Below, piece by piece: positions 22,301 to 51,395 of a DNA stretch of 64,000 nucleotides. Source of the stretch: Pilasporangium apinafurcum (Eukaryota; Oomycota; Peronosporomycetes; Pythiales; Pythiaceae); contig BCKE01000029.1 in assembly GCA_001600495.1 (NCBI GenBank), positions 355,807 through 419,806 of the forward strand, in the 5' to 3' direction. The notes beneath the pieces are model-generated. The model had not been told where the DNA came from. It worked only from the letters and a program-made list of their open reading frames with translations, and searched no databases. The translations under genes were made by a program, and so were the position numbers. Each line of letters opens with the position of its first letter. The stretch's first letter is position 1.

Positions 22301-24421
22301 GCCATCTTCAACAATTGCAGGATGATTATCCACGCAAGAAGCCAAATTCGCAATTGCAAGAATGGCAAACCGTTGAATTTCTAACTCCACGTCTTCTGAT
22401 CGCGCCAGTGACATCAACGGTTCCATCGCCCCATTCTCCATAAGCAGCACGCGCATGTCCGGATTTGTCGCTAAATTGCAAATGCCCAATGATCCAACTC
22501 GCTGAGACGCCATATCAGGAGATAATAAATACGATATCAATAATTGATGTCCACCATGCTCGACAATTTCGTCGTGGTTTCGTCGAAATGCCGACAAATT
22601 ACCGAGTGCGCGACCGGCTTCACGTTGAACTTCTACAAATTGGGATCGCATCATGGATATCAATGGTTGAACTCCTCCGTCTAAACAAATCTTCTCTTGG
22701 TTTTCTTCGACCTCAGCTAAGTTCGCAAGTGTTGCACAACTCTGTCGGGATAGCTCCATATCTTCCGATTGCGCATGAAATATCAGTGGTGTAACGCATC
22801 CACTCTTTGCAATTTCATATTTCGTTTCTTCGCTCACCGACAGATTACAGAGAGCAGCACAGACCTCGCGCAAGATTTCAATGTCGTCCGATTGCAAAAG
22901 CATTACGAGAGGCTCCAAGCCTCCTTCTTGGAGAATTTTCACCTTATTTGTCTCATTTACGGCGAGACCACGTATCGCTGCAACAGCTTGATGGTGCACG
23001 TCTGTGTCTTCCGAGGACGCTAATGTGATGATAGGCTGAAGTCCGCCTTCTTCCACCATCCTTGAGTGATTTTGATCGTTAGACGCAAAGTTTGCTAGCG
23101 CAAATGCCACATAGTATTGACTAAGCGCATCAGCTGTGCTTGCAAGTGAGAACAATGAAAGCAAACAACCAGCCTCCAAAAGTGCAGGATGGTTAGCTTT
23201 CATTGCCGCTAAATTCGCGATTGCTAGGACAGCGTAGCGTCGCGCTTCCAGCTCACGGTCGAATGCTTGAGCAAGCTTGATTAAGGGTCCAATGGTACCC
23301 AGGCTTACGATTTGCACTTGGTAGCTGGCAGTTGTCGATAGATTCGCTAATGCCAGTGCTGCATATCGCTGACACACATGGTGATCGAGTACCAACGCAT
23401 TTGCCAATGGCTGTAATATTCCTTCCTTCATTAATGCTGGTTGAATATCTTCATTGGCCGTGAGATTAGCGAGGCAACGACAAGCTTCCGATCGAGTATT
23501 CAAGTCTTTTGCTACGGCGAGTGCCATGATGGATGCGAGCCCATTTTCGCGAAGTAGTTTCTCATGAAGTTCATGAAGCTCCATCAGATTGGCGATGGTA
23601 CTGCACGCATATTCCTCGACTGCAGGGTCTCCCGAAAGTGACATTGAGATAATTGTAAGCAAAGCACGATCTGAGATTTCAATTTTGTTTTCTGGCGTCC
23701 CTGAAAGCGTACAAAACGCAGCAGCAACCTCGCGTTGAATATCAGGTTCATCGGATCGAGCCATGAGCACGAGTGGATCCAACATCCCTTCTTTCACAAC
23801 GGAAATACGATTTGACGGACTGATGCAAAGACCACGAAGGCATGCGAGCGACTGACGCTGTGCACTTACTTCACTACAACATGCGAGCGCAATCAATCGC
23901 GGAATCGCACCTTCTTCAACAATTATGTGGCGATATTCATTATTTACAGACAAGTTCGCCAGAGCAAACGCACAATACACACCAGAATGCACCATTTCCG
24001 GGTCCAATAGCTTCACCAGTGGCTCAATAGTGCTTAATTTCACAATTTCTTCGTGATTTTCTGGCTCTGCAGCGAGATTCCCGATCGTCATCGCGATGTA
24101 TTGCTTCGCAATCATATCGTTAACAGATTCTTTGAAATATTCCACCAAAGGTGCCAGCGCTCCATCTTCAACAATTTTAACTCGTGAATTTGGACTTGAT
24201 GCAATGTTGGCAAAGCATAAGCATGCCAACCGTAGGGCATCAGTGTCACTTGACTTGAGAATTAAAGTTAATAAAGCTTTAACGACACCCTTTGACACCA
24301 TCTTGTCATGGAGGTCGGCATTGGTGGAGATCTCCGCAAGGCTAAAGGCACAGTCACGCTGCTCCGTGGGCTTTCGCTCTCGCCTTCCCCTTGCAATAAG
24401 TTGTTCTAGCACCTTCGACAT
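13313..24421 (-). CDS. Giant armadillo-repeat protein
   Basis: One uninterrupted reading frame of about 11.1 kb encodes 3,702 residues, starting at the ATG at 24421 (MSKVLEQLIARGRRE). Almost the whole protein is a tandem array of armadillo repeats of about 41-42 residues. I estimate 85-90 units from the length. Each unit carries variants of a core such as EEGALAPLV, then a helix with QRxAAxALCNLS and an Asn-rich end such as NEENKxxIV. The layout is like yeast Vac8 or plant ARM proteins, but with no other domain. The last 40 residues are charged and coiled (ETIAARRAKEKTTQYLDEKI). Armadillo arrays form superhelical scaffolds for protein binding. The partner and location here are unknown. No membrane segment or signal is seen. 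The complete lack of introns contrasts with the neighbours. Confidence 0.93.
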   Translation of the reverse strand: MSKVLEQLIARGRRERKPTEQRDCAFSLAEISTNADLHDKMVSKGVVKALLTLILKSSDTDALRLACLCFANIASSPNSRVKIVEDGALAPLVEYFKESVNDMIAKQYIAMTIGNLAAEPENHEEIVKLSTIEPLVKLLDPEMVHSGVYCAFALANLSVNNEYRHIIVEEGAIPRLIALACCSEVSAQRQSLACLRGLCISPSNRISVVKEGMLDPLVLMARSDEPDIQREVAAAFCTLSGTPENKIEISDRALLTIISMSLSGDPAVEEYACSTIANLMELHELHEKLLRENGLASIMALAVAKDLNTRSEACRCLANLTANEDIQPALMKEGILQPLANALVLDHHVCQRYAALALANLSTTASYQVQIVSLGTIGPLIKLAQAFDRELEARRYAVLAIANLAAMKANHPALLEAGCLLSLFSLASTADALSQYYVAFALANFASNDQNHSRMVEEGGLQPIITLASSEDTDVHHQAVAAIRGLAVNETNKVKILQEGGLEPLVMLLQSDDIEILREVCAALCNLSVSEETKYEIAKSGCVTPLIFHAQSEDMELSRQSCATLANLAEVEENQEKICLDGGVQPLISMMRSQFVEVQREAGRALGNLSAFRRNHDEIVEHGGHQLLISYLLSPDMASQRVGSLGICNLATNPDMRVLLMENGAMEPLMSLARSEDVELEIQRFAILAIANLASCVDNHPAIVEDGSLPLLISLSGAPDEEVRQYAAFALVKVALNADLRKKITEEGGLEPVLYLARTQDAEIHQDVLPAICTLSFADANKTEICKSGGLPPLLTALTNPDIGIQRQACCAIANLAESVENQSHIVNSGAIPPMVAALIHGGIIVQREAARALGNLAANCDFGDIIFRQGAASPLVQLLGSEIVDCQRMAAMALCNISTNVDNQPKMVAQGVLTPIIARIEEALDPRSLADNDVIRYCLLILSNLAVSQSTHSEIMEKTLHLLAGYSKHRDVKCRQFSIFALGNLCSNPKNIEQIVDANCLKPIISFSFPGDPNVQFQAIAALRGLSVNQIIRQQVVRLGALEPLILAASSESIEVQREVAATLCNLSLSEENKITMTRGGCIPPLIALASSKDSYRERQAICALANLAEMIEGHTHKKMLEEGVLTPLYALATTEDIEVKRQVARCIALFAAKPTSQTTLLRSNALRYIAAFTHEDDKMCQRFGTLAIGNIAVDPKNHKDLFDQGAVAALLTVDKSNDLETRRSLAFALNNLAANESNNAMIGKLGVLRAVIALLHDADEDTHLQACFALRRMAIEAKNRSQAVSFGALKPLFKLATSENVEVLREVCAALRNLSLSEDNKVVILLNGGLAPLISLIHSGDNEVAHQACGVLANLAEVVENQGRIVKEGILQHIKFVLRSKSVDVQREALRAIANMSAEYAYTAEIVSGGGLTPLLAALDSPDYLSQRYAAMGIANLSTNSENVTKIAQDGMIPILVALGKNLNGDLDTQRYAIYTLTNMASIRPTQAQLVEANVLQLFAELLRHADMTLRNAAAFGIANFAAFPENHLIIMETDDQCLYSLLHMTKSHDSKCQYRAVTALRGLCVNEIARKEIVRRGGLLPLLALTKSEDMDIQQEVLACLCNLSLSGCIGSHPEEFIDACEMESLVSFLCSADTTYRLFGAVTLGNIASRYEHQDAIVNAGAVTPLIEISNSVDLETHRCIAFALCNLAANPERRQMVEQLGGIVPIIQLACSENTDDQKTAIAALRGISNRPESRIRIVNEGGIEPLLLAVRSNDVDLKREVAMTAYNLSLTEKNKLEMAKTAMVGALITLMLSPDILTAKFACACVANLAENADTHANIARERGLHFFLEFQKQAAPDVAREAVKCVTNLSADYDLHDELLADCCQELLMHAIQHPDDTTRLFGAIGLSNLVSNPQNHSRVLREQVVTPLIQLISDTLNPDPRRFAILTLGSIFVNAKNHPSFVEHGVLPPLIAATNAENDMETRFNAAFALGKLAMNEEYHELIGQLSDSGGPLIQVAIDANHIQHQSAQCQAISVLRRMTTLDVNRMTMMKHRTHLLDALLGCANQRDMEGQREVAACISNLALAYDNKLIFAQSTALLQQLMVLCASSDIEVARNACGAAANIAENTETHEHMVDAHAIHVGVKCMRSRHLPVYREASRFVSNLMSTPEFHTMLIDEEGLSVLMRVAKIEDHECQYNAALAFHKLTSNTHTHPVILSSGAVRTLHTLLAAPGLDVQHQAAASLKNMTACKENKAKLVEDGTINAMISLLRSPDVMLKCMGAAGIRHLSLYTPVKTLFVQEGGLQPLFSCCNLDDDNVRLQCSGVLANLSENVHNQVEIVKQHGMEALIALAKVSYHAEIAQNTSRVFANISSNAENHMGVFQLHEYRAVFQLGMSKEENCGRDAAMCIGNLAVTSKNQFLISEYGGLLPLTQLLQSVYASNRQYAARAMYRLSAHADNQHRIVDAGALVPLVKLLGEFSDPETQRCAAMAICNLSSNAANEQKIMKANGMKGLIALLRSTGVECAKYSCMGLCNLTANPANQLHLVKDDGLEPLVDLAASPDPECCRYASMTLSNVAAHRQNRVIVVEKYALRPLRALCFASNLECQRSAALAIYNVSCAQVNQLKIVEAGIEAALIKLAGSHDVDCTLYATMTLCNLAANAETRQAAARGGGLQVLILCSKHADPSVRKYACIALCNLACAQLLQVQIIVHGGLTPIVALTDYDDDLESQRFGIMALSNLAVNESNHEHMISRGVLKVALRLGLSKDEDIRQYAAFALANFSGNADHCAAIGDEGGILSLITLAHSEDPNSHTLAISALRRLCQFSVQNRGRIVRGGGLVPLTIAGHSEELETQREVAATFCNLSLSDEYKVEIVNQGALRPLIKLAQSPNLEVARQACGALANLAEHVDTHEKFVEEKSGSFLIALMKHRNLEIHREASRTIANLLSSFKHHTEIVTDGLPGLVHLGLSMDAECQYNAALAFRKLAPNFASHRGIIYEGGLKTLFFLLQTKEMNTRRQSILALRDLAANNEHKRKYTEEGGLPALITFLRDADPTLQAPTVAALRHLSSSNAEIKQQIIEEGVLRPLLRCMNNNNARNLDLQCQCAGLLANLSEHIANQTKIVDEGLTTALVALALCVDSAEIHQDVSRTLANLCSNEENHVTVYKQGGLKCLIHLTNAKDDITQRYAAMGLRFLSSNPQIRVHIVQESLLPPFIKLAQSPILDYQRTAASAFSSFSLNEENKLKLVRDGGLTQILKCCLYEDLEVKRDCVFALANITDSLEYQLDVVREGAISVMIQVGTHDDARVQRDCARVLASLSITDSIKHELIKEDAVKTLFRLTRSLDSATQRFAALAICNISSSGDDKVFIVEQGAIRPLTHLIRFPDADIQRYAALALAGLALGGHGNNKIRMIEEGAVHPLVDLLRYPSADVQLCGCLALNALVLGKQNVTKVATMQEGGLLPLLALLSSQDLECVRCALYCLGSLAESKDVLLKLVELGAMPQVVSQSYRPDSEIKRNCGYFFALIVEQQTDYHDDFVREGGMDATIALACVEDTESQEYSTFTLAHLASNREYQVPLVEHGALRPLIAMMSVHAEPRHYAGLALLKLADNYENHLRIAEEGGIQALLRIARARSTDEELQYKASLSLGQLASNATKSLPNQGKLQGTAGENIGASVAKMTQLTETIAARRAKEKTTQYLDEKIAHEKNK

Positions 24422-31753: not shown

Positions 31754-34700
31754 TTACATCACAATACAGGCATTCTGATCGTCGGTGGATTTCTTTTTCA
31801 TTTCTTGATTCGAGCGCACACCATTGTTCTTAAATGAAAAATTGCGCCGTAGGTAACCCAAAACCAGGCGATTTTCCTTTTTCAGCAACTGAAACGCATT
31901 ATTGAGCGACGTAAGATCGTCTGTCGTCGGAGCGTCTTTGTCCATGACCCTCTCTGTTGCGATTTGAACACGGAAAGCTGCCTTTGAGACTCGCATGGCC
32001 GCCACATACGCCGATGATCCTTTAAGCGAATGACTTTCTCGACGCAGAACAACGAAATTTTTCGTGGAATATGCAATCTCGATACGACGCATATACTCTT
32101 CGCACATCGCGGCATATTTTTCTAGGAGGCTTAAGAATAAATTTTCATTCCCACCACATTGATCCACGCCAAGCGCATAGTCGACAGGATCTCCATCAGG
32201 AATTGGGATGTCCTCAGGTAAGGCGGACGATGCAAACGAGCATGGACTACTGTTCACTGCATATGATGTGTCGCTTTCTTCGTCCAAGCTGCAATTGTTA
32301 GATTCATCGCCACGGTGAAGCATACGATGCTTTCGATCCTCAAACTCTGAGCCATTGGTCGCTGCTGGAGTTACTGATGATACTGCGACTACACCAGCGG
32401 CAACATTGGACGCTACCAGGTGAACATCCGATACAGCATCCAAGTAGAGCGAATTGTTGTACGATCCAGAGGCATCACCTGTGTCTAGATTGGGATTGAT
32501 CGTATCAGAGGCACCAGACTGCACACTAAGCCCTTCGCTGACCGTCGTCAACGACATTAATTGTGGATCCGAAACCATCGCCTGCAACCCTGGGTTGTGG
32601 CCAATCATCATCGGATCTTCTAATTCCAAGTCAGAAATTGCACGAGTAAGATCCAGTGCTTCCTTATGTGTTGATGCTGGCACTAAGTTAGCTGTACTAG
32701 TATCCGATTGTTCACCATCGTCAGAGAAAACACTGGGCTCACGGCTAGACAGCTTCTGACCCACGTAACGCACGCGCATCCATTGCCGAACAGCAGCACG
32801 TAACTTGGTCTTACCAATAGGCTTGACAATGAATTCATCCATGCCTGCGTCAAGACACTTCTTCCGATCACCACTCATGGCGTAGGCCGTCAACCCAATG
32901 ATCGGAATACGAGGGATATTCATCTCCTGTTCAAATTTCCGAATGTTTTGGGTCGCGGTGTACCCGTTCATGATAGGCATCTCACAATCCATCAGCACCA
33001 GATCGTATGACTCGTGATGTTCCTTGTACGCCAGATATGCATCCCGTCCATTCGTCTCCCATTGGAGCAAGTGATTATCTTCGGTGAAAAAGCATTTTAC
33101 GACCTCCCAATTGAATTCATTGTCTTCAACCACCAAAATTCGGGCATGTTTGGGTACCATGTTCTCCGCGGCACTGCTATCTCCGATAAACGAATGATTG
33201 TTGTCGGATGGTAGGATCGCAGGATGAGCTGTATCGTCATCCATTCGTCGCACAACAACCGTAAAGAAAAATTCAGAGCCTTCACCAAGTTCGCTATCCA
33301 CATCGATTTCGCCGTCCATCAGTTCTACCAGTTGCTTGCAGATCGCTAGTCCAAGACCAGAACCGGTTGGATTGTTTTTCCGCGTGCGCTCCAGCTTGGT
33401 GAATAACGAAAATAACCGCGATTTTTCTTCATCATCCATACCAATGCCTGTATCAACCACTTGGAAGAGTAGCTTCACGAAGGATTTTGGACGATCTGGT
33501 GATGGAACCGTACTGCACTTTACAGTAATTGATCCTTCGTTGGTAAATTTAATAGCGTTAGAAAGCAAGTTCAGCAGCACTTGTCGCAGTCGAATGACAT
33601 CACCAATTACAAACGTCGGGACATTTGAAGAACACTCTAAAGTGAGTTTGATGTTCTTCTCTCGAGCTTTAAACTGGAAGATCTCAATCGAGTAATCCAA
33701 GAGATCTTGCATTTGGAATGGATCCGACGAGATTTCCATATGCCCCGCTTCAATCTTTGACAAATCAAGAATGTCGTTGATAAGGTTGAGTAGTAGCGAT
33801 CCCGACACGTACGCCATATGGACAAAGCGTTCTGGTGTCTTGTCCAGCTTCTGCTCACGTAACATCTCGAGCATTCCGAGAACACCGTTCAGTGGTGTTC
33901 TCAATTCATGACTGAACGATGCCAAGAAGTTGACCCTTGCAGCCTCCATGTGTTTCTTCGCTGTATAATCTTGGCCCACCCCAATAACACCGCGGATGTT
34001 GCCATGCATGTCCTTCTTACTTGATGCGTTCACCAAGAGTAGCAGTGATCTTCCAGCTTTTGTGGTCATTGGTAACTCCATTTCGCCAACATCAATGCCA
34101 ATCAACGCTTGGTTTAAGAGTCTTCGGACTAGTGGACGGCTTTCAACAGTGATAAACGAGTCAACAAGAGATAATCCCAAAATTGTTGACTTGTGGTAAC
34201 CGGTGATTTCTTCAATCTTCTGATTCCACTCGTTGATGCATCCGAACGTATCAACCCCAAAAATTGGAGCGTTTGCAGTATCAATCAAGCGAAAATATTC
34301 GTGCTCCTGCGCAATACGATCCGTGATGTCTTGTCCAATGCCGACAACACCAACAATCGCACCGTGAATATCATATCGTGGTGTCGCATTCAACAAAATC
34401 TCAATTCGAGTACCAGGACGTGTGATGAGTGGGAACTCGAAATTCGCAGTTTCAATCCCAGCGAGAGCTTTGGAAAATACGTCGAACACGATAGGTCTGT
34501 ATTCAGGGGAAATAAATGTTTCCACTAAATTCTCTCCGATCACTTCATCTGTTGAATACTGAGTGATTTGCGCAGCCTTCTTGTTCCAGATATTCACACA
34601 CAGGTTTGCGTCAACCCCAAAAATTGGAGCATTCGCTGTATCGATTAAACGAATGTACTCCTCCTCTTGAGCAATTCTATCCCGCAGATCTTGTCCGATG

Positions 34701-37700
34701 CCTACAGCACCAACAATCTGACCATGCTGATCGAACCGAGCAGTAGCATTGAGTGATATTTTGATGGTCCGCCCAGCTTTTGTCATTAATGCTACTTCAA
34801 AATTGCTCGTTTCATCACCATGTAGAGCTTTCGACAGAATATTTTCAATAGTGTCACGAGATTCTTCAGCAATAAAGTTATTTACCAAATGTTTGCCCAT
34901 CACTTCTGATTTTGTGTACTGAGTCATTTCAGCCGTTTTACGATTCCAAATCGTGATGCATCCATTGACATCAACGCCAAAAATTGGTGCATTCGCTTTT
35001 TCTATCAGCCGTGCATACTCTTGTTCCTGAGCAATGCGCTCGGTGATATCTTGACCGATTCCAACCATTCCAATCACTTCACCCAATTCATTGAACCGTG
35101 TGGTCGCGTTCAACAAAATCTCTACGCGACGCCCAGCTTTTGTGATCAATGGAAACTCAAAGTTTGCAGTTTCAACTCCTGTTAGGGCTTTCGAGAGGAC
35201 AAACCCAACAGCTTGTCGGTAATCTTCTGTGATAAACTTTTCCACCAAATTCTCGCCCATGACATCTTCGGTGGAAAACTGTGTGATTTCGGCAGCTTTT
35301 TTGTTCCAAATGTTAACCCTCCCTTCTCGATCAACACCAAAGATGGGGGCATTGGCTGTGTCAATCAAACGCGCATATTCCTGCTCTTGTGCGATACGAT
35401 CTGTAATGTCTTGTCCAATTCCGACCACACCGACAATTTCACCCAATTCGTTGTATCTTGGTGTAGCGTTCAGCAAAATTTCAACTCGTCTGCCACTTTT
35501 CGTAATCAATGGAAAATTGAAATTCGCTGTTTGAACACCATTCAATGCTTGAGATAGCACCAATCCCACAGCAAACCGATAATTTTCAGATATGAACTGC
35601 TGCACCAAATCCTGTCCCATCACATCTTTGGATGAATACTGCATGATTTCGGCAGCTTTCTTGTTCCAAATGTTAACCAGACCAGTCCTGTCGACACCAA
35701 AAATTGGTGCATTTGCTGTATCAATAAGACGCTGATATTCTTGCTCCTGTGCGATACGAGTGGTAATATCTTGACCAATACCGACAACACCGATGATATC
35801 GCCTTTTTGATTGTATCGAGGTGTCGCATTAAGACGAATTTCCACTCGTCTTCCGGTTCTTGTGATCAACGGGAATTCGAAATTCGCAGTTTCCGTGCCC
35901 TTCATTGCTTCCGATAATACCTTTTGAATGCCTAGCTTAGCTTCTTGTGGAACAAACTCTTCCACCATGTTGCAACCAAGAACTTCCTGGACAGAATATT
36001 CGGTAATTTGAGCTGCATTTCGATTCCAGATGTTGACACATCCATTCATATCCACTCCAAAAATCGGAGCATTGGCTGTATCAATCAAACGGGTGTACTC
36101 TTCTTCCTGAGCGCGTTTATCTGTGAAATCTTGGCCGATGCCAACGACACCAGTAATCTTACCAGTGTGATCGTATCGAGGTGTTGCATTCAACAGGATT
36201 TCGAGCCGACGACCACTTTTGGCAACTAAAGGAAACTCAAAATTAGCTGTCTCTACACCCTCCAACGCTTTTGCAAGCACACATGCGACTCCTTCTCGAT
36301 GTTCATCCGAAATAAAGCTCAACAGCTCTTCACCTACGACAAATTCGTTGCTGTACTCGGTAATAGCCGCAGCTTTCTTATTCCAAATCGTCACGCGGTA
36401 ATCTTTATCGACGCCAAAGATTGGAGCATTGGCAGTATCGATGAGCCGACTGTATTCCTGTTCCTGCACGATTCGATCAGTGATATCTTGACCAATACCC
36501 ACAACGCCAATAATTTGCCCCAAATGGTCGTATCGCGGCGTCGCATTCAACAAAATCTCGACTTTCCGTCCATTTTTCGTGATCAATGGGAACTCAAAGT
36601 TTGCAGTCTCTACACCCTGGAAAGCCTTTTGAAACACCGCTGCGACTGCTTCTTGATAATCCTCGGCAATCAAACATGATACCAAATCAGCCCCCATGAC
36701 TTCTTTAGGCAAGTACTCGCTGATTTCTGCGGCTTTTTTGTTGAAAATGACAACATGGCCATCGGTATCGGCACCGAAAATCGGAGCGTTCGCCGAGTCA
36801 ATGAGTTTTCTATATTCCATTTCCTTGGCGTTCCGTTCGGTCACATCCTGTCCAATGGCAACGACGCCAACCACCGAGCCGCTTTCACCGAATTGTGGTG
36901 TCAGACAAAGCATGATCTCCACGCGGGAGCCTGTGGACGTGATCAGCGGCAGTTCGAAATCAGCACCTGCCATCCCTGTAGCGATTGTCTGTGTGATTGC
37001 CTCAGCAACAATATCCCTAAAATTTTCGTCCACCATTTCCAAAAGCGGCGTACCGATAGCGTCTTCTAGCCCATAGCCAGTCAGCGATTCTGCTTTGGCA
37101 TTCCAAATTGTGATCAGTCCTCTATGATCCAGCTCTATGATGGGTGCATTTGCTTGCATGATCACGCGTGTATATTGTGTATCATGTACGCGCCATTCCG
37201 TGACATCCTGTCCAATGCCAATGACACCCGATACATTTCCATTCGCATCACGGTTCACTGTGAGACTAATGAGGATCTGCACATTGAGACCAACAAGGTT
37301 TGAGCGGAGAGGAATGGTGACGTCTTGCACTGTTTTTTCTGGATGCTGTAGCACCTTCATGATGTTTTCATTCACGTGGAAAAAATTGCCTTCACTAACG
37401 ACCTCCTTGAGCGGCTGGCCGACGACTTCAAATGCCGAGCGATTGGTGATCTTGTAAAGTTTTTGATTCCAAAACGTTACCGTCCCCTGCATCGAGATCC
37501 CAATGACAGGCGCATTTGCTTCGTCCAAAAGGCGGAAGAACTGCCCCTGTGGCTCCAAAGACGTGCACTCGCCTAGAAAACAGGGTTGGCGGTTCTCTTT
37601 AGCCACATGATGTGCTGTTACTTTCCGCTTTGGTCTTTCGTTCTGCTGTGCTGTCTGATTATTTAAGTTGCTACTACTGTTCGTCATCGACGGCGGCAAC

Positions 37701-37738
37701 ACTGTCGTCGTCAATGGTGCCGTCACTTTTTCTTCCAT
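31754..37738 (-). CDS. Hybrid histidine kinase with ten PAS domains, receiver and HPt
   Basis: A single exon of 1,994 residues with an ATG at 37738. After a 65-residue Thr/Asn-rich head, ten PAS domains run in tandem to about residue 1255. Units 3-10 share a signature like RLIDTANAPIFGVD with an end like VVGIGQDITDRIAQEQEY. A HisKA domain follows with FSHELRTPLNG (phospho-acceptor His near 1277), then an ATPase domain with NLLSNAIKFT, DTGIGM and GSGLGLAI. A receiver domain comes next, with LVVEDNEFNWE, acceptor Asp in LMDCEMPIMNG (near 1584) and Lys in FIVKPIG. An HPt domain carries ESHSLKGSSAYV (His near 1904). All phosphorelay residues are kept. There is no membrane segment, so it is a cytosolic sensor. 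The ligand bound by the PAS domains is unknown. A paralogue in opposite orientation starts at 61608. Confidence 0.96.
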   Translation of the reverse strand: MEEKVTAPLTTTVLPPSMTNSSSNLNNQTAQQNERPKRKVTAHHVAKENRQPCFLGECTSLEPQGQFFRLLDEANAPVIGISMQGTVTFWNQKLYKITNRSAFEVVGQPLKEVVSEGNFFHVNENIMKVLQHPEKTVQDVTIPLRSNLVGLNVQILISLTVNRDANGNVSGVIGIGQDVTEWRVHDTQYTRVIMQANAPIIELDHRGLITIWNAKAESLTGYGLEDAIGTPLLEMVDENFRDIVAEAITQTIATGMAGADFELPLITSTGSRVEIMLCLTPQFGESGSVVGVVAIGQDVTERNAKEMEYRKLIDSANAPIFGADTDGHVVIFNKKAAEISEYLPKEVMGADLVSCLIAEDYQEAVAAVFQKAFQGVETANFEFPLITKNGRKVEILLNATPRYDHLGQIIGVVGIGQDITDRIVQEQEYSRLIDTANAPIFGVDKDYRVTIWNKKAAAITEYSNEFVVGEELLSFISDEHREGVACVLAKALEGVETANFEFPLVAKSGRRLEILLNATPRYDHTGKITGVVGIGQDFTDKRAQEEEYTRLIDTANAPIFGVDMNGCVNIWNRNAAQITEYSVQEVLGCNMVEEFVPQEAKLGIQKVLSEAMKGTETANFEFPLITRTGRRVEIRLNATPRYNQKGDIIGVVGIGQDITTRIAQEQEYQRLIDTANAPIFGVDRTGLVNIWNKKAAEIMQYSSKDVMGQDLVQQFISENYRFAVGLVLSQALNGVQTANFNFPLITKSGRRVEILLNATPRYNELGEIVGVVGIGQDITDRIAQEQEYARLIDTANAPIFGVDREGRVNIWNKKAAEITQFSTEDVMGENLVEKFITEDYRQAVGFVLSKALTGVETANFEFPLITKAGRRVEILLNATTRFNELGEVIGMVGIGQDITERIAQEQEYARLIEKANAPIFGVDVNGCITIWNRKTAEMTQYTKSEVMGKHLVNNFIAEESRDTIENILSKALHGDETSNFEVALMTKAGRTIKISLNATARFDQHGQIVGAVGIGQDLRDRIAQEEEYIRLIDTANAPIFGVDANLCVNIWNKKAAQITQYSTDEVIGENLVETFISPEYRPIVFDVFSKALAGIETANFEFPLITRPGTRIEILLNATPRYDIHGAIVGVVGIGQDITDRIAQEHEYFRLIDTANAPIFGVDTFGCINEWNQKIEEITGYHKSTILGLSLVDSFITVESRPLVRRLLNQALIGIDVGEMELPMTTKAGRSLLLLVNASSKKDMHGNIRGVIGVGQDYTAKKHMEAARVNFLASFSHELRTPLNGVLGMLEMLREQKLDKTPERFVHMAYVSGSLLLNLINDILDLSKIEAGHMEISSDPFQMQDLLDYSIEIFQFKAREKNIKLTLECSSNVPTFVIGDVIRLRQVLLNLLSNAIKFTNEGSITVKCSTVPSPDRPKSFVKLLFQVVDTGIGMDDEEKSRLFSLFTKLERTRKNNPTGSGLGLAICKQLVELMDGEIDVDSELGEGSEFFFTVVVRRMDDDTAHPAILPSDNNHSFIGDSSAAENMVPKHARILVVEDNEFNWEVVKCFFTEDNHLLQWETNGRDAYLAYKEHHESYDLVLMDCEMPIMNGYTATQNIRKFEQEMNIPRIPIIGLTAYAMSGDRKKCLDAGMDEFIVKPIGKTKLRAAVRQWMRVRYVGQKLSSREPSVFSDDGEQSDTSTANLVPASTHKEALDLTRAISDLELEDPMMIGHNPGLQAMVSDPQLMSLTTVSEGLSVQSGASDTINPNLDTGDASGSYNNSLYLDAVSDVHLVASNVAAGVVAVSSVTPAATNGSEFEDRKHRMLHRGDESNNCSLDEESDTSYAVNSSPCSFASSALPEDIPIPDGDPVDYALGVDQCGGNENLFLSLLEKYAAMCEEYMRRIEIAYSTKNFVVLRRESHSLKGSSAYVAAMRVSKAAFRVQIATERVMDKDAPTTDDLTSLNNAFQLLKKENRLVLGYLRRNFSFKNNGVRSNQEMKKKSTDDQNACIVM
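33980..37560 (-). repeat. Tandem PAS-coding array with a 360-bp period
   Basis: The codon for the Phe (or its equivalent) in the APIFGVD motif recurs at 37138, 36778, 36418, 36061 and 35701, and then every 360 bp to about 34261. The step is exactly 120 codons except for one 357-bp step between the fourth and fifth units. The units are similar at DNA level as well as in protein. Confidence 0.9.
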
Positions 37739-39425
37739 GATTTGTAAGGCTGTGCCTGCGATATCTACTCACACACACGCGCGCACTTGAGCGAGCGACA
37801 GGATCAACTTCACTCGTCACCTCTCCCTGTTTTTTTCTTGTCGAGAAGCTGAGATTACTCGATAATTAACACGTTAATTTGGAGAAGGAAGGGATGATGT
37901 CCTGCTTCTCCAATCGCCAATTGTATGAAAGACCAAAGAGTAGGAGCAATTCACAGGAGATGAAGGCTGCTCTTTCTTCCTTCTCTGTCTGTGTTTGTCT
38001 CTCCTCCCCGTCGCGGTGCTTTCTCCTTTCCTAGCAGCTTTCCCTTCTGACGAAAAGCGGGAGTTGAGTCATGTATGGGCCACCTGGAATGACTGGCCCA
38101 TCCATCCAGCAACTGTTCTCCTGCCACTTTTATTTCCCTCTATTACAACGCGACGTTCGAGATACAAAACCCTTTTATATCATATACCCCATCCAAACAG
38201 ATCCTAAGACCTCACTCTCCCATTTCCGAGTATCGCAATGCAATGTTGTGTTCATGTGATCTCCATGTACGTAGTTCGTATGGTACTCAACAAAGAAAGA
38301 AAAAAGAAAGTGTTGAGCTCATTCCGTTCCACCTGCCGCCATCTTCTGTCCAGCAAAGAAAAGGATGAGTGCTGAACATACCACATTGGGTCCACCTTTT
38401 TTGCCAATGGGTTAACTCATCTTTTTCTAGATTTTACGTCTAGAGTGCTACAAAATCGTCTATTGGGGGTGGAATAACGCTACTCTTACTGTTGATTTTT
38501 TTTATAGAAAAGACAAACAAGAGAGGGGGAGGGAGGGAGAACAGTCTCCTCGTCTGCGAAGCATCTCAACATTGCCGCGATTCTTCGAATTCAACTAGGA
38601 AAATTAAAAGTAGCCCCAAGAATGATTGTGGCCACATCATTAAGTGGAGGGGAAATAATCTCATCTCCAACGATTGGCAGATAGCTCCCATATTGGTTCT
38701 TTGTAACATATACGTTTTGAAAGGTTACGCTTGTAATGGAATACGTCAAATACACAGCAAATCGTTTCTCATATCCTTGAAATCTGAGGATGATATTGTC
38801 GCCCTGACAAGAAGAACAAACAGTTGTTGATGGCAGTGAATGGATGACGCTTTCACAGCTGGCTGCCTGTCGCTCCAATCGCAGCAGCACTTGAACAGTG
38901 CCATGCGACAGCTCTTCATCCCTGCTTTGTACACCCCATATCATCCATAGCTGTAAACTTTCAAGTGCAGCCTGGTGGCTGGCTGTCTTCCATCTCACTT
39001 GTCAGTTTGCTGCCATCTCATGACATTGATTTCAGTTGAAAGGCAGGACCAAATATGGATTCTCTGCCAAAGTTAGATATTTGGTATCCATCCTGAAACC
39101 ATTAGAGGATGGGATCTTCAAAGGCCGATTAACGCCAGAGCTATCTCAAACAGTAGCGGCTACATAACGCGGTTGTATGATCTTGAATTGATTTGTGGTC
39201 GTTTGGAACAAGAAATGGATGTGAATTTATTATTTCAACACCAATATTGACAAAGAACTACGATCGTCTCTTGTCGAGTCTCATTAAGAAATCAACTATC
39301 CAATCCTGTGTGTCAGAAAGCATTGCTATCGACTGCTTTCCCAGATAGTGAAGTCGCTGCCGAGATTGATTCCAGCCTCAAGAACAACAAGCCAGGACTG
39401 TTCAGATTAGTGGAAGTGGTATGTA
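37739..39425. other. Upstream region of the histidine kinase and 5' flank of the Fanzor relic
   Basis: The first 500 nt contain the kinase promoter and leader on the minus strand, with an alternating AC tract near 37770. An open frame on the minus strand (38940-38591) has no ATG at its start and no recognised domain. From about 39260 to 39425 fragments such as NKPGLFRLVEVVCSEQ could be the decayed N-terminal part of the nuclease relic that follows. Nothing else is supported. Confidence 0.4.
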
Positions 39426-40566
39426 GTGAGCAGATCTCGAGGATTGTGGTTACCATCCAAGACTGATGTGAGTACAGACTTTTCGCACAAATGTGTAAAG
39501 CTCATAGCGTCCAAGTCGTGGTTCACGCTGATCAATAACTTTATCAAGAAAACAACGAAGACATGGAAGCGCAAGAACTCTCAGAAGACCTTTGGTCTCG
39601 TGTTAACGTCTTTGTTGTCAGAAGAAGTGGAAAGAAATCAGAAATGCTCGGAAGATTCTGATCTTCGATCTCCGAAGATCAAACGACGAAAGATAGATAA
39701 ATCGAGTCCAAGCAGCACTCAGAAAGTGAGATTGTATTTAACGAAGGAACAGAAGCAACTTCTTCGCAAGATGTTTGATACTTATCGAACAATCTATAAC
39801 AAGATTGCCGAAGTGTCGAGAGAAGACTGCTATAGGTTATCTCTACAAGACTTGAATGCGAAATATCATCTGATCGCTCAAAAGCATTCATTGACCAAGT
39901 ATCTTTCGGGGGATACCATCTGGATGCTCCAGCAGTAGTCATGGATGTAACATACAGAGATTTTATCAAAGCTATCAAGTCATCAAAAGCTGAAGTCAAA
40001 TCTCAAAAGGACAGAGAAAAGAAGACGCTGTTTCCTCAGTTGTGAATTTAAGCAGACAGACTTCATTCGAACGTGCGCCATCGATCTCGAAGTCCGAAGT
40101 TTCAGCATCTTGTACGACCCTCATGGGATGACGTTAAGCGCGGACAATACCAAGCACGCAATGTTCAATTGCTGTCTATTGATCGATCGTCTCAAGTCTC
40201 AGTTGTCTTAAGAAAAGTCCAAGTGCAAGTGATATCGCTTGAGAAAGAGGGTTTACAGGATCTTTTAATGGATGAAAGCGATGGCATCGAACATGCATCA
40301 CAAAGTTTCCAAGTGGTTGTTAGATAACTACCATAAAGTTCTTCTTCCACCCTTCGGGATTTGGGAGCTGACGTCCAAGCAAAAAAGGATTTCAAGCAAA
40401 GCGTCAAGAGCAATGCTCACGTGGTCTCACTATAAGTTTAAGAAGCTATTCAACTATAAGATGGAAAGGACTGGAGGAAAGATGACCGAATGTGAAGAAC
40501 ACTATACAAGAAAAATCTGTTCTCAGAGTCCAGGTGTCGGAGCTGCCTATTCTGCGGTTGTCTAGT
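39426..40566 (+). pseudogene. Fanzor-type (eukaryotic TnpB) RNA-guided nuclease relic
   Basis: Several reading frames in the same direction together resemble a TnpB/Fanzor protein in the correct order. The frame 39426-39938 has a basic N-terminal region and then KVRLYLTKEQKQLLRKMFDT, the family's first helical motif, followed by YRTIYNKIAEV. A shifted frame continues with DVTYRDFIKAIKSSKAE. Another has AIDLEVRSFSILYDPHG, matching the RuvC-I block (family pattern xLDPGVRTF) with the Asp kept and PG replaced by LE. The last open stretch has MHHKVSKWLLDNYHKVLLPP, RAMLTWSHYKFKKLF and EEHYTRKICSQ, matching RuvC-II surroundings and the start of the zinc ribbon. The rest of the ribbon and RuvC-III are missing. 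Multiple stops and frameshifts make it non-functional. The call rests on motif order and could be tested by a profile search. Confidence 0.8.
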
Positions 40567-40901
40567 CTTAGCTAGCTTTTGTTAGTCAAGTCGCACCCAA
40601 ACAACAAAAAATAGGAGCTCCTTCCTGAGGTACTTTCGTATCCCAAATGATCTCTGTGGTGAGTTTAACGCCCTTAATGGGTCGAATTCATTGATCATTT
40701 TTCTTTTGCTTTTGCTTGCTCGCTCCCTCGACAGCATAATAAAATACGAGATGGATTTTTTTTCTGATATCTGCCAGGCTCTCAACCTGCAGCGAAACAG
40801 AATGTCCCACCAAGGCAAGCAGCCGAGAAATCCCGCGTTTATTTCAGCCCGAAAACGAGGATGTATCGCCGTAGTGCACGCCTAGTGAGGCTCAATTTTG
40901 T
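40567..40901. other. Intergenic region after the Fanzor relic
   Basis: It begins with the TTGTCTAGTCTTAGCTA sequence also seen in the 5.4-kb and 11.8-kb repeats. The rest has short open frames without features and the 3' flank of the Rab gene. No gene is recognised. Confidence 0.45.
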
Positions 40902-41928
<1,027 letters not shown>

Positions 41929-43390: not shown

Positions 43391-46300
43391 ATGGCCGTCT
43401 CCAGCGACGATTGGCCGCACTTCTCGCTGCTTGCTGGCGCATCAACGTGCGCAATTACACCTGCGAATGAAGAAATCAATCAGAAGCTGATCCATGCGCT
43501 GTCTTCTCCGTCGTCATTTACATGCGAGTGTTGGTTGCAGCTTCGTACACCAAAGAAGCGAATCACTACTGACGGCGACTGTCGACTACGCGGTTGCTGG
43601 GTCGTCTATTCCCCACAATGGGCGTGCGGAATTAATAGCGCTGGCCGTATCGCTGTTTATCAAGGGAAAGCGTGGTATACAACAGTATCCAACAGTCAAA
43701 TGTTGCGCGAGCGGCGTTGGTATCATTTAGCGGGTGAGATGATCTGGTCTCGTCGATCATGAGTGTATGCATGCATTGACAGTCAATGTTGTTTTGTAAA
43801 CAGTCAGCTATGGTGCTAAAGAGGGGAGCTTGGAAATGCATTTAGATGGAGAGCCTGTTTCTTTGCAAATTCCCTCCAAATTAGACGACACGACTGGTGG
43901 TAACAAGATAGTGGATGAACCCCCATATTGTGGGCTAAGGTTGCATGGAAATATGTTCCATATCGCATACACACCAAACGCTGAGAATAGTTTATCGATT
44001 ATTGTGCATGAATTTCGGTTGTGGAGCTGCATAGTGCCGCGAGACGTTCTACAGAGGTGAGTTGTTAATATGAAAAATTGTTACACAAGTGCTTTGACCC
44101 AATTTTCATGGTGCTTCTAGTTGGTTTGTACAGACACATTTAGATCACCATCCTCTTATCAGCAAGCTATTCGCGCACTGGGCATTCTCTAGTGGTACTT
44201 TCAGGAATGGTGAAATGGATTTAAGCGGAAATGGGCATCATGTATGTCTTCAGCGGATTAATAATAGTCATCGAGGCTCGAGTTGGCTCTGCCTGACTCC
44301 ATCAGCACTCCGCCCAGAAAGTAATATGTTTATTCTCTCCGCATGGCAGGATACATCAACCATTTCCGGAATTTGTCGATTTGCTGTGGCGGTTAATTAT
44401 CGTCATAAAAAGAATGATTCATGGAATAAGGGACAAACTACACGGCGATGTCCCGTGATATTGTTCCTGCTTAATTTTTTGTCCATAAAAAGTAGCAGCA
44501 TCGTCAAGAAGGATGAGGGACAATCAGTCGTGGCCCTGTTGAAAGAGTGTGTCAGCAACTTGCCGGATGAAACTATTGTTGGATTTCGAATTCCCGCAAC
44601 GGGGAAACAGGAAGGACTGGTCGTTCCTTTGACGCATATGACCACCGCGGGTAAGGTGAGTTGTTCTATTCTGTTATACAGAAACGAATGGGCATATCAC
44701 GACTTCCTGTGTATGATCACTGCAGTCACATGTCATGAAGAGACTTGACCAACTAGCGATCGCCAAACTAGGTGACGCAATCGATTTGATACATTCGATT
44801 AAGCAATGCCTATCCCTCCTTGAAGGTCATAATGTCAATGCAAGAATAGATGCCGAAGCAGAGCAGCGAAGTGAGTTATCATTTTACAACATTGTGGTCA
44901 TAAATGGCTGCGACCTCGAGGATGCTTCATATAAAATGCTGACTAGCGCCCTGCGAGAGATTGAGGATACTTTTGGTGCATGGGTGAATAACATGAATAT
45001 CTACATACTTCATATGACGTCTTATTTGAATCGTCAACAGGATGGCGATTCAAGGTTCTATTTCGAGTATTTTACAAATGCGAGCAACTTGGAGTGGGCT
45101 TTATCAGCGATTATCAATAGAGTACGGAGCATCTGTTGTAAACATGGGCGACTCCAGTTTGATGTAGTTGGTGATGGTAGTATCCAGTTGGATAGTGATG
45201 GAAGCAACAGGATGTTGCGCTTACAAAACATAGAAACGAACAGCTTTTTTGCGAATGTCGGACTTTGCGAAGAAAGCGAATCATTTTTTATCACTGGAAT
45301 TTTCGCGAACTCGAAAGAACCGCAACAACTGAAAGGTGATGATTTCTTGCCGTTTGTGGAAGTGAGCTTTTCTTATATGGGATATAGTAAGCGCTGTCAT
45401 GTTGTGAGAACAGCAATCCGATTAAATAGTGATATGGCGAACGAATTTCACGTTGAGCGAGTCCATAGGAACAAGAGATTGGTGGGCAACAGTGACATCA
45501 GTTTGCTTCTCGAACAGCGATGCCAGTTGATGGGTGAAAAAAGAGATTTCCATGTCAATTTGCTTTTGCGGGAATTTGCAGAAGCGGAAAATACATTCAA
45601 GAGGATCGATGTTATGAAAGAAGAACTTTGGGCAAAACAACAATGGATTTCCGAACGCGGATTGCGATTATTTGAAGAAGATAAGATCTCCAAAGTGCAA
45701 ACAGAAGAGCTAACGAATGTGGCTCAATTTCACCAGCGATTGGAACTGCTTCACGCTCAATATACTATTGATGTGAGAGAGAGCAGTAGAGGAAATAATG
45801 GTAGTGATGGAGTTAAGCGCATAAAACTTGATTCATACACTCCGAAATATCAACATATCAGCAATGACCAAGCAGATGACAACGCGGATGAATTCTCCAT
45901 GAACGCCGAGGAAGCGGAAGAGAAATACCAAAAGCTTGCATTAAGGGCTGATTTTCTCATTCGTCAATTCGATGATATGGAACTACAACTGAAGAACACG
46001 CTAAAGGCTGTTCGTCTTGCGGAGCACAAGAGTACCACGATTATGAACGACTCGATAAAAAATTGGATGATGAAGTATCGAGACTTGATTCACACTAAGC
46101 AGGAAATAATGCTTACCACGCTACTGAAGAACAAAACTAGTCGCCTGATGTATTTTCTAGAGCAGAAACAAGCCGCAACTGCTAGAACGACGAACAACAT
46201 AAAAGCAGTAAACAGTTTAATACTTCGATACGAGAAGGAGCACATCAAGAGGAGGAAGCGTATTATTGTCTGTATGAAAGATATGTTTTCAAGCGTCAAA

Positions 46301-49300
46301 GATGAATTTACACACGCATCAAGTGTGAAGGTATCCAAGCAGGCTCTTACACAATGCCGATTGATGAGTTCACCATCATTATACCCGGAAGTATACAGCT
46401 CTTGCATTCTGGTATTTTTCCCACTGGAGCACTCTCAAAGAGAGACACCCAGCAATGTATCGCAAGCTGCCGTTAACGTAGTACACAGCATTTTGTATGG
46501 GCTTCGGTACTTTTGTCATGAAGCAACTCAGGAACCACTATGTCGGCGTGTATCATGTCATGAGAGTTTTCTATGGCTAGCATATGAACAAGGTGATTCC
46601 AAAGTCTCAAACGACATATTCACGGTCAACAAGAAGCAAGTATATCAACAATGCTGGGCGGTCATCTTTTTCACATACAATGCAATGTTTACATCTCCAA
46701 CAGCCGTTCGTGAGATGAAAGAGACTTTGCTAGTGGCGAAGCAAATGAAGAAACCTATACTCAATATCCAACTGGAACCTCTCTTACCAGGTCTGGAGGA
46801 ATTCAAGCAAGCGTGGATAGAGCCTCCAGTACTCCATGAGGGAACTCCCATTCGATTATGTCCAGTCGAGAAAGAGTACCTCATGTGGAAACAAAATGTG
46901 GCATTTTTCCAGTCAACTATCCGTGACATTGACGATTCTACAAGTTCTTCACTACGATTTCCGCTATCCACGTTTGCTTGTGATATATGTGGTTCAAGGG
47001 CTTCCCAAAACAGCTTAAATGAGCTAGTTCCGTGTCTCTCTTGTTGCTGGCCATTTGTCTCGCGCTCATCTCGAGTAATTGGTCTTGTTTCGGAGACGAA
47101 TGCATCTTTGACAACATCGGTCGAAAGTACGAACGACACTGTATCATCTTTCACCGATGTTGTACATTTTATTAGTAAATGGGTGAATGATATTCCGTCG
47201 ACTTCCATCCCGTTTGCCGTTCGTAATTATCAGCTTGATCCAAAGGATGTATCCCCACTCTCCATTAAATGGGAAGAAATACTTACCGCTAAGCTTCGCG
47301 ATGAAACCGTGCAATGGGAAAAGAGTTTCGCAAATCGAAAACAAGACATGGAAAAGATCATTCAAAAGTTATTTAAAGTGTATGAAGAAGAAGCGCTAGA
47401 GTTAACAAATCTCGAGTCTACTCTATTGAAGCGCAAGCAAAGTAGTCGAGATGTGAGTATGGAACAATTGAGCAACTATCGCGCTGAAATTGATATTATT
47501 AAGTCGATTATGGCGAGAAAATGTAAAGACGATAAGCTGGAATTGCCACGGCGTGCACGAGAAGTAGCCACGATGGTAGAAGAAGATGTACGGCAGCATA
47601 TTCATGAAACTGACGCATGGATGATGGACGAGGAGAGACTACAAGAAACAGAAGAAATGTCAGATGCAAGTAATGCACCAGTTATGGATGCAAAACATAT
47701 ATTCCATCAATTGTTAGCACAAACTTGTCGAAAAATTGCAAATGTTGGACGCCAGCTTGTTGAATATCAATTACAAAAAATGACCAAGCAACTAGATATG
47801 GAAGAACAGCTTGCTCATATCGACCACTATGATTTTCTCCGTCGTTTTGAAGAGGTTACTTTCAATGCTAAATTATTGTATTCTTTTCATGAGGGGTAAT
47901 GGCTCACGGTGGTTTACCCTGTAGGACGAGCTGCTACGAGCAGAAAATATGTATGATGATGCCTTGCACATTGCTCATGACTTGATTGCCGAACAGGAGA
48001 CGAAGGTCGTAGATGATGCAAGGTCATTATGGGAGATATCGCAGCTTCTACCATGCAAATTTTCATCTGCCATATTTGATTGTGATATGGTAGAGCTGGA
48101 TAAACATAGTCTTAATATGCAAAATCAAAATGCCTTTCAAGCATTGATATTAACTGATACCCAGGTTGCAGGTCTACGCATGTGTGTGGTAAGCACCTGA
48201 AAACATTTTACTGGCTTAAGAATAGTCAGTTGTGACATAGTGCATTGATTCCATGTTAGGCGAAGCGCTTTTTAAAGGAAGTCCATGCAGCGAGGGTCAT
48301 TTTTCAATCGTTCTTTACACCTTCTTCAGCATTAGTGATTGATGGTGATTATTCCCAAAGGGAGCAATTCCCAGCAGATATAACAAAGCTGAAAGAGGTC
48401 TGCGCAGTTAGTTTGGATTACCCTGCCAACACTTGGGATTCACTGGAGAAAATGGCGGCATTAATAGAAATGGAAGTGCAACTGACATACCAAGCAAACC
48501 TTCGATGCTGTGCGCAGAAAATGCGTTTTCATAACGAATTTATGGGAGCAACCTTGCGGCAGAATGGGGAGTTTAACCAAAGCTACTTGAATCATCTTCA
48601 AGAACAGCTGGTGGATGCTGACGCTCGGAAAAACAACAGCTTTCATATGAAAGAGCAAAATGCAAAACAACTTCGTGCAGTTATAGAGGACCGCGAGCAA
48701 TGCAAACGACGAATGGTGTTATTGCAAGCCAAACTTATGGAGATCAAGGAAAGCAATCATTTTGCACTGGATATGCTTAAAACCTGCCGTGGGTCATACG
48801 AAAGAGCAACGAATGTAATTGAGCAGCTACAGAACTACAAAATGGATCCAGTTTACAAAACTTGGCATGCTGTTGGTGGTTTTCATGTGTCATGTATTGG
48901 TGATCTATATGACGTGCGATCCAAAAGCTCAGAGATCATTGAAGAGCTAGAGCGTGAAATTGCAATGTTAGAGCGTCAAATGGATCGATTCAATGGAGTT
49001 GCCGAAAATCGTCGTACTGAATGGATCAACGAAAGTATTGTCGACATTCAGTTGTACGAGCGTGTTGAGAAGATTCAAGACTGCGCCCATGATGCGCTTG
49101 AACAGGTGATAGAAGCTGAGGAACGACGAGTTTTTCATCTTCTCTCATGTTTCGATGCGCGTGGGACGTGGCTGCAAAAAGGTATGATTCAGCAGTTACA
49201 TCACCAAAGTGGGGCTTCATGGAACATAGGAATCGATGACATTTTGGTTCAGCTATCCATTGCGAGGCTGGACGTAATCAGGCAAGAAAAGCAGCGAGAC

Positions 49301-51395
49301 GCTCTCGTAAGGAAGCTGCGTGTGCTAGAGCGATTGCGAAAGCAAGAAGCTGAGAAAAAACAAGTACGGTTTGTTTCTTTTGATGTAGATGATTATTGGT
49401 ATCACTCACCAATGTAAATGTTTTACGTTCTACACAGCTCTTCATCGATGAACTGGACAACTACCAAGAGCTGCATGCACTTATGCTTAAGCGTGTTGAT
49501 TATATTAATAATCAATTATCACAAGTAACTCAAGGATTAACTTCGCTTTCAGGGGATACTGTCCAAGAGAAGAAGGCGTTATCGCTGTCACGTGAACAAA
49601 TTCGTACCAGTGTGGATACACTCAAAGCTTTGTCCATCATGGCGAGAAAAGATCACCTTGCTGCCGAAGCACGGCTGTGTCATATCAAATGGCAAATACA
49701 AGAACAAACTGCTACGGACTATCGAATAGAAGCGCTGATCAACGAGTTGACAGCTAAAATCGCTGTTGCTGATAATTACCTAGCGCTTTTGAAGCAAGAT
49801 GACGAGTACTTACGCGTCCAAGGAATTGAGACAGCTTCAGCACCTTTGTTTCCCAACGAAGGCTGGACCAAGAACTGCGGTATTGACCTAAGACTCGTAC
49901 AGTTGGTATTTGAGTACTATGCGAGTCAGCAATGGTCCAAACAAGCTCTGAACGAAACGACAGTCATCGGTGAGAGAATTTTTCATCTGAAAGAGCAACT
50001 CGGTGCAAAAACGAGTGAAAGTGAGTTCAATGAAGCGGAACAAGCATCTGCAATATCTGCAATAAGAAAAGCTCAGTTAAAGCTGTTAGTAAATCGATTC
50101 GAGTGCCGTGTAGCAGAACAAACATCCGATGCGTTGCGAGCAATAATCGACGCCAGAGTGGCAGGTGCACTCTCCTCACTATCATATCATAATCATCAAC
50201 TCGACGAAATACTTGCGAAAGAAGAGTCTGCGGCAACAGTGTTGTCATTGGAAACCTTGGAAAACTTGTTCTCTTGGAAGATCTGTCATAAACAGAAGGA
50301 AGCGTTGAACAACATGTTGCGAAGAATAGCTACCATAGCCGATCCAAGAGATACAGCGGGGAATATCTCGGAAGTGATTTTTGGAGCGAGTTTGGGTCGA
50401 AACGATATCAAGCAGATCTACTACCGAAAGTCGAAAGCGTACGTCGATGAACAATGGAAAATTGTGCTTGTCGTACTCTTTTTTGCGCGTCTCTTTCGTC
50501 GATCAGCGCTCAAGGTAAGTCAATCAACTGATAGCAAGTTTTTAATCTCTTTTATATATTTGTATGCTACTTTTTTTTCCAGAAAGCAGCTCGAAAGCGA
50601 AAAGCTGAAGCCTCAAAACTTGCGACAATTACTCTTGCACGGCTTGCCGAATGCAATCGAATCGCTCAGTTCCTTCGAAAACCTGATGCCGCCCAAAACC
50701 TACAGACTATCTGCAAGTCTGTGGCTGAGATGCACGACCAACCTCTGGAATGGAGATCATGCATGATGGAGAGCATTCGACTGTGGCAACTCGAGATTCA
50801 AGAAACAGAACGAGCCGATTTCCTCATAACCGTTAGCGATGGTCTACGCACGGTACGTCCACAACATCCCACGCAGTTATTGAATATATGGGCGAATAGA
50901 CTCACTTTTTGTTGGCTTGTCTAGTCTCGGCCTTTGCATGTCTCACTTGCTTCATTGTTTGATCCACATCATAACATTCGCCTGGTTGCCCATGCACTCA
51001 CACAAGCCAGAATGCGATTTGAGAATCGGCCGCCCATTCCAACTGATGTCGAACTTCTCTCAGTAACAACCAATACTATTAAGGTTCGTGCGTTCATTCT
51101 CAGCGGTGACTGTGAGGCTGGGACTGATGCTTGTTATGTTGATGTGTAGATAAAGTGGAGGCCATATACAGACGATCAAGAGTTGGTGTACGCTGCTGAG
51201 ATCCAGGCGTGGCAGCCGACCGCTACAACCACCCAGCATTGGGACCGTTTCCTTTGCGATGAAAAGACTCGGCATACGTTTTACAACCTCCAACCACTTG
51301 GCACCTATTGTGTTCGCATCCGCATTGGGTTCAGCAAGACAAATTGGGGGTTTGCCTCCACTCCAATCTTCGTGTCGTTGGCAAGTTTGACATGA
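43391..51395 (+). CDS. Very large multidomain protein: LamG/ConA-like, coiled coils, TIR-like segment, FN3
   Basis: Ten exons (43391-43733, 43804-44056, 44121-44655, 44726-47854, 47925-48188, 48260-49363, 49438-50514, 50583-50852, 50925-51083, 51150-51395) join in phase to 2,459 residues. I do not recognise it as a named family. Residues about 40-200 look like a LamG/concanavalin-like sandwich (FTCECWLQLR, RRWYHLAVSYGAKEGSLEMH). A second related segment starts near 220 (HWAFSSGTFRNGEMDLSGNG). About 930-1060 has alternating strands and helices ending in WAVIFFTYNAMFTSPTAVRE, distantly like a TIR domain. A Cys cluster (CDICG, CLSCC) lies near 1128-1150. Long charged coiled coils occupy most of 600-900 and 1200-2300. 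The last 95 residues are a fibronectin type III domain (IPTDVELLSV, KWRPY, YNLQPLGTYCVRIRIG). No signal peptide is seen. The donor at 47855 (GTTACT) is the weakest junction, but the only one I found that keeps frame. Confidence 0.8.

Follow-up and report, generated by a model that had tools for sequence, protein, structure and literature searches.

The window, by which we mean the whole analysed stretch of 64,000 nucleotides from a Pilasporangium apinafurcum contig, carries genes for a PAS-rich hybrid histidine kinase, a WHEP-domain tRNA synthetase, an armadillo protein and a Ras-type GTPase; since these neighbours are eukaryotic, so is the contig. On the plus strand, between the genes for the kinase and the GTPase, the remnants of two overlapping genes, an IS607-type tnpA and a Fanzor/TnpB-type nuclease gene, are followed by a strongly folding stretch (Table 1). 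The first-pass annotation of this DNA had recognized a decayed Fanzor/TnpB gene at 39426-40566. The family assignment held (Pfam 4e-9, NCBIfam 3e-8 and our own profiles), while the overlapping IS607 tnpA had been missed and the extent was too small, as tnpA begins at 39074 and the match in the TnpB frame at 39237.

Table 1. Positions of the element's parts and of selected neighbouring features in the window
Feature	Positions	Strand	Support
Armadillo-repeat protein, almost wholly repeats, 3702 aa, single frame	13313-24421	-	
Hybrid histidine kinase, 1994 aa, about ten PAS domains, receiver, HPt	31754-37738	-	
tnpA remnant, IS607-family serine transposase, N-terminal helix-turn-helix	39074-39697	+	NCBIfam, PDB, own profile
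Fanzor/TnpB N-terminal part, +1 frame relative to tnpA, first half overlapping tnpA	39237-39863	+	own profile, Pfam
Possible out-of-frame continuation of the Fanzor middle (not significant)	39836-40045	+	open frame; profile positions 218-249, -2.1 bits
Fanzor/TnpB, RuvC-I to zinc-ribbon start	40065-40529	+	own profile, NCBIfam, Pfam
Strongly folding stretch, candidate guide-RNA remnant	40500-40700	+	fold z-score, offset as in 16 relatives
Three long open frames, 1054, 321 and 427 aa, without Pfam match at 1e-5	44735-50766	+	

The tnpA remnant was identified by several libraries. The translation of 39077-39661, with X at stops, matched the NCBIfam profile transpos_IS607 (NF033518) at 8.5e-12 over positions 7-183 of 187, with 45 bits for a cut-off of 110, and the open piece 39251-39463 matched this profile even alone (2.2e-6). 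The catalytic part matched serine recombinases of the PDB (3lhf, 4.6e-7; 3ilx, 2.9e-5), and no match to TnpA was obtained with general Pfam profiles. We also built profiles from 43 TnpA and 46 TnpB sequences of relatives and ran them on the window's six-frame translation, in which stops are written as X; E-values are given for six frame sequences. The TnpA profile returned a single match there (4.2e-17, 51 bits, positions 10-191 of 197) and none in the reversed window. A serine-recombinase TnpA with an N-terminal DNA-binding domain, as characterizes IS607, is hence present as a remnant (8.5e-12 and 4.2e-17). Five stops (39074, 39248, 39464, 39536 and 39659) interrupt its frame, and alignment to relatives shows the DRLxRFG stretch of the catalytic domain to be disrupted. 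The gene is thus nearly full-length but broken, a remnant and not an enzyme.

In the nuclease gene, our TnpB profile matched an N-terminal part (2.5e-15, 45 bits, positions 24-207 of 535) and a part from RuvC-I to the zinc ribbon (1.2e-33, 105 bits, positions 325-479 of 535). The N-terminal likeness within the tnpA overlap could partly be a by-product of the tnpA frame. Pfam HTH_OrfB_IS605 matched 39411-39935 at 4e-9. The translation of 40269-40562 matched the Pfam Cas12f1-like TNB family at 4.3e-5 (24 bits, slightly below the curated cut-off of 26.3) and NCBIfam guided_TnpB at 3e-8, with 33 bits for a whole-protein cut-off of 100, a shortfall to be expected because the query is a fragment. 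Among solved structures, its best match was the mimivirus TnpB-like protein L79 (PDB 9b0l, 8.8e-5). The RuvC-I piece alone retrieved no relevant family or structure from Pfam, NCBIfam or the solved structures.

A profile search of the segment with TnpB-family models, suggested at first pass, thus yielded significant matches (HTH_OrfB 4e-9, guided_TnpB 3e-8, own profile 1.2e-33), and the peptides quoted at that stage are all present on the plus strand in the order given, far beyond chance (1.2e-33 and 2.5e-15). The four blocks had been assigned to shifted frames; they lie instead in one frame broken by stops, to which 39411-39938, 39951-40211 and 40269-40565 all belong. A shifted-frame reading is therefore tenable at most for about 39.86-40.05 kb, where neither our profile (-2.1 bits) nor Pfam gave a significant match. 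Another open frame, 40052-40327, had no Pfam match and was taken as chance. The Fanzor frame contains eight stops within 39237-40565 (39285, 39408, 39936, 39948, 40209, 40230, 40266 and 40563), next to the five of the TnpA frame within 39074-39697.

The same TnpB profile gave further matches in the window, near 3.5 kb (E 0.0005 and 0.0011; 7.4 and 6.3 bits), confined to the ribbon part, and five more at E 0.16 or above; we ascribe these to chance or to some unrelated zinc ribbon. Two matches, with E 5.9 and 6.0, appeared in the reversed window. The weak matches near 3.5 kb call for caution with low nominal E-values and could lend colour to a chance likeness at the element itself; yet the matches there, obtained with independent libraries, reach 105, 45 and 51 bits and stand in family order, which makes such an accident practically negligible.

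According to PMC10711439, the marks of Fanzors are DPG at RuvC-I and a glutamate six residues before the first ribbon cysteine, termed E_alt. The codon of the RuvC-I aspartate lies at 40080, that of E_alt at 40497 and that of the first ribbon cysteine at 40518. As already seen at first pass, the aspartate is kept while the following PG has become LE; the subsequent V-R is retained as well, and we infer that DPG was lost through decay. The glutamate stands six residues ahead of the cysteine (EHYTRKIC), and 139 residues in a single frame separate it from the aspartate, compared with 138-145 in relatives. This comparison drew on 57 relative proteins of at least 400 residues: 31 have a C4 ribbon as defined by our own pattern, all 31 have Glu at the E_alt place, and in 30 of the 31 the RuvC-I motif lies 138-145 residues from it. 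The earlier reading that the ribbon end and RuvC-III are missing was likewise borne out, since the best score for them in 40526-40900 was -3.6 bits, compared with a median of -3.3 and a highest value of 4.5 in 200 shuffles. Of the C4 ribbon only the first cysteine was found, together with no RuvC-III RD; the middle and the C-terminus of the nuclease are unrecognizable.

Fifteen relatives without a C4 ribbon were inspected. Eleven have lost the zinc-ribbon cysteines at the C-terminal end of TnpB (L007, L009, L012, L016, L020, L022, L061, L066, L067, L069 and L070) and retain DPG, E_alt and the RuvC-III Asp; among the other four, three have a CxxC/CxC ribbon and one is truncated. The ribbon-less relatives stem from viral contigs, Microcystis, Poribacteria and Caldilineaceae.

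Could the locus still function as a gene, by way of introns or recoding? After the stops at 39285 and 39408, the nuclease frame runs through 175 codons without a stop (39411-39935), and the distance from Asp to E_alt is that of the family. However, the stops at 40209, 40230 and 40266 fall inside an almost gap-free alignment to relatives, RuvC-III is absent, and TnpA combines internal stops with a disrupted catalytic stretch, so that we regard this as highly unlikely. Neither frame now codes a whole protein, and the intact open frames that an active system would have are lacking in this copy.

Relatives were collected. In tblastn searches, the C-terminal piece matched two Trichormus plasmids (5e-8) and 24 phage records, among which that of a Microcoleus phage scored best (1e-11); no match was obtained in the viral_contigs collection with either the C-terminal or the TnpA piece, or with the TnpA piece against plasmids. 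Scans started from the phage and plasmid relatives gave 1, 22, 58 and 3 loci. By title, the 58 genome loci comprise 52 from cyanobacteria, five from Poribacteria and one from Caldilineaceae. Reference TnpA or TnpB was matched by 84 of 88 loci and both by 83. The nearest matches in these DNA collections are cyanobacterial (the Microcoleus phage and the Trichormus plasmids), and as the collections are without eukaryotes, the nearest match was necessarily prokaryotic or viral. Gilbert and Cordaux are said to have described in 2013 IS607-like sequences of stramenopiles that are nearest to cyanobacterial ones.

That bacterial DNA was misassembled into the contig would account for relatives that are bacterial and phage, a result to which the collections were bound in any case; against identities of at most 33-34% to the nearest relatives, heavy decay and eukaryotic genes on either side, this is scarcely credible.

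The arrangement of the two genes is that of the family. In 76 of the 83 loci with both genes, tnpB is read in frame +1 with respect to tnpA, the same relation as in the window; the exceptions are L014, L054, L055, L057, L064, L074 and L082. These counts include near-identical copies; each gene was taken to start at its earliest possible codon, and in some loci the best piece comes from a broken copy. Within the 76, the genes overlap by at least 200 bases in 52 loci and by 0-199 in 20, and do not overlap in four. The two genes of IS607 frequently overlap (PMC6188088), and the nuclease gene of the window likewise overlaps tnpA.

A right end, GCGTAAATGTATCAG, is common to the pro-Fanzor IS607 elements (L001-L083), and so is a guide-RNA fold with covarying pairs, which overlaps the tnpB end. 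In 25 of 30 relatives, the right end lies within four mismatches of GCGTAAATGTATCAG, 207-224 bases past the Cys codon. In the window, the best site of this kind past 40518 has 6 mismatches in 15, and sites with four (seven) or five (41) mismatches occur in the window; this candidate right end was rejected. An alignment of the guide RNA of 16 relatives contains 22 pairs, 14 of them changed on both sides, and the covariance model derived from it, R1, recovered 18 of 20 further loci with E no higher than 1, and 17 of these reached 0.0015 or below; one test locus (L004) repeats the training element L003 and another (L006) is a near copy of the training element L005. The guide-RNA model also matched eight or nine of the nine ribbon-less relatives searched, L012 being without match and L067 and L070 outside the search.

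The stretch 40500-40700 folds with a z-score of -3.94, the lowest among 64 local windows and under every one of 240 random windows, whose minimum was -2.66. On repetition the value was -3.62, and none of 200 shuffles was equally stable; the values were -2.55 for the minus strand, -2.48 for a shorter piece and -2.46 for 40540-40740. In the 16 relatives, the mean z-score has its lowest values in windows that start at the codon of the first ribbon cysteine (-3.05) and 90 bases further on (-2.48), and ranges from -0.41 to -1.69 at the remaining 11 offsets, although single elements dip elsewhere too. No Rfam family matched in the window at the gathering score, and R1, run on 37800-41500 with filters off, gave seven matches up to E 10, the best at 40281 (6.1 bits, E 1.5) and none at 40500-40700. 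Thus a structured RNA at the 3′ end, which the first pass had proposed to look for in intact copies, has support from folding and position and none from Rfam or R1. The folded stretch stands where the guide RNA of relatives lies and is a candidate remnant, which folding and position support. That 40500-40700 still gives rise to a transcript, as a guide-RNA module surviving the loss of both proteins and usable in trans by a Fanzor made elsewhere in the genome with the flanking DNA as guide, we consider very unlikely.

The IS607 TnpA beside the nuclease, the family frame relation and the Asp-to-E_alt spacing of 139 identify an IS607-type element with a Fanzor2/pro-Fanzor-type nuclease rather than a Fanzor1. 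Homology, gene order, frame relation, active-site spacing and the decay of both genes are demonstrated. The element is very probably the decayed remnant, in a eukaryotic nuclear contig, of an IS607-type transposon that carried tnpA and an overlapping nuclease gene of this type. For the capture of a Fanzor1 by a eukaryotic DNA transposon (Mariner, Helitron, Sola and such) there would be some precedent, as the stramenopile species in a 2013 table mostly hold Fanzor1 (PMC3627910), and decay has gone far enough to obscure the class of the nuclease. However, IS607 TnpA adjoins the nuclease in the family's own frame relation, no chain named Fanzor occurs among the structure matches listed for the C-terminal piece, and no Fanzor1 was encountered within IS607 elements in PMC10711439. 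Moreover, no convincing terminal inverted repeat was detected in 37800-41000, where the true ends of the element were not located. Such a capture is accordingly most improbable: the carrier is IS607 TnpA and the element is not a Fanzor1 element.

Trees were built from rows pre-chosen by three-residue motifs and lengths. The nuclease tree has 46 rows, namely the window, L79, L085, L088 and 42 relatives, L087 being omitted because it falls outside our motif pattern; the TnpA tree has 44. In the tree of the part from RuvC-I onward, the row of the window falls within a set of 44 (98/95) that excludes mimivirus L79 and L085. It groups with prokaryotic elements, its finer position not being fixed (branch 2.96, identity at most 34%, flagged as a long branch), and the same applies to the finer position in the TnpA tree (branch 3.35, identity at most 33%, likewise flagged). 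L088, the intended outgroup, was placed among ribbon-less relatives, a placement flagged as long-branch attraction. Fanzor2 is represented in this long-branched tree by one viral protein only (L79) and eukaryotic Fanzors are not included, so that, with a long branch apart from the sole viral Fanzor2, the label Fanzor2 is not distinguished from a more recent arrival from cyanobacteria.

The intact element very probably carried tnpA, for a transposase of the serine recombinase type that has a helix-turn-helix at its N-terminus, overlapped in the +1 frame by the gene of the RNA-guided nuclease. Our picture of how it worked is wholly drawn from the IS607 and TnpB-Fanzor families. The intact TnpA presumably moved the element as double-stranded DNA between short matching dinucleotides, presumably leaving neither inverted repeats nor a target duplication. 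A guide RNA would presumably have been read from the right end and have directed the nuclease to matching DNA, whose cutting presumably favoured retention of the element.

Finding tnpA corrects the picture of a lone Fanzor: both genes together in a eukaryotic contig fit the entry of a whole IS607 element and not of a nuclease alone. The collected relatives also yield a covariance model for the guide RNA of pro-Fanzors, along with related elements outside cyanobacteria that are relevant to the origin of Fanzors. Among the titles listed on Fanzor or IS607 in oomycetes, Phytophthora or stramenopiles, or on Fanzor pseudogenes, none concerned such a remnant. The remnant is new but of a known sort, a decayed IS607-type element that is ordinary in kind.

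Compared with known systems, the element shares with Fanzor1 elements a TnpB-family nuclease within a eukaryotic transposable element, but theirs accompany other transposases (PMC3627910) whereas here it is IS607 TnpA. With the Fanzor2 elements of eukaryotes and giant viruses, such as mimivirus L79/ISvMimi, it has in common an IS607-type serine recombinase, a TnpB-like nuclease and a eukaryotic setting (PMC3627910). Serine recombinases are named in some other Fanzor2 elements (PMC3627910, section 13), and Bao and Jurka listed in 2013 one Fanzor2 family in each of three Phytophthora species (PMC3627910). L79 is the best solved-structure match of the nuclease's C-terminal piece, although the window row does not join it in the tree, where branches are long. 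From the cyanobacterial IS607 elements with a pro-Fanzor TnpB (L003, L026-L038 and others; the term is from PMC10711439), which are intact or recent, the element differs in that both its genes are broken, RuvC-I reads DLE, the C-terminus is unrecognized and the host is eukaryotic; it resembles them in the overlap and frame relation of the two genes, in E_alt and in the spacing from the aspartate to E_alt.
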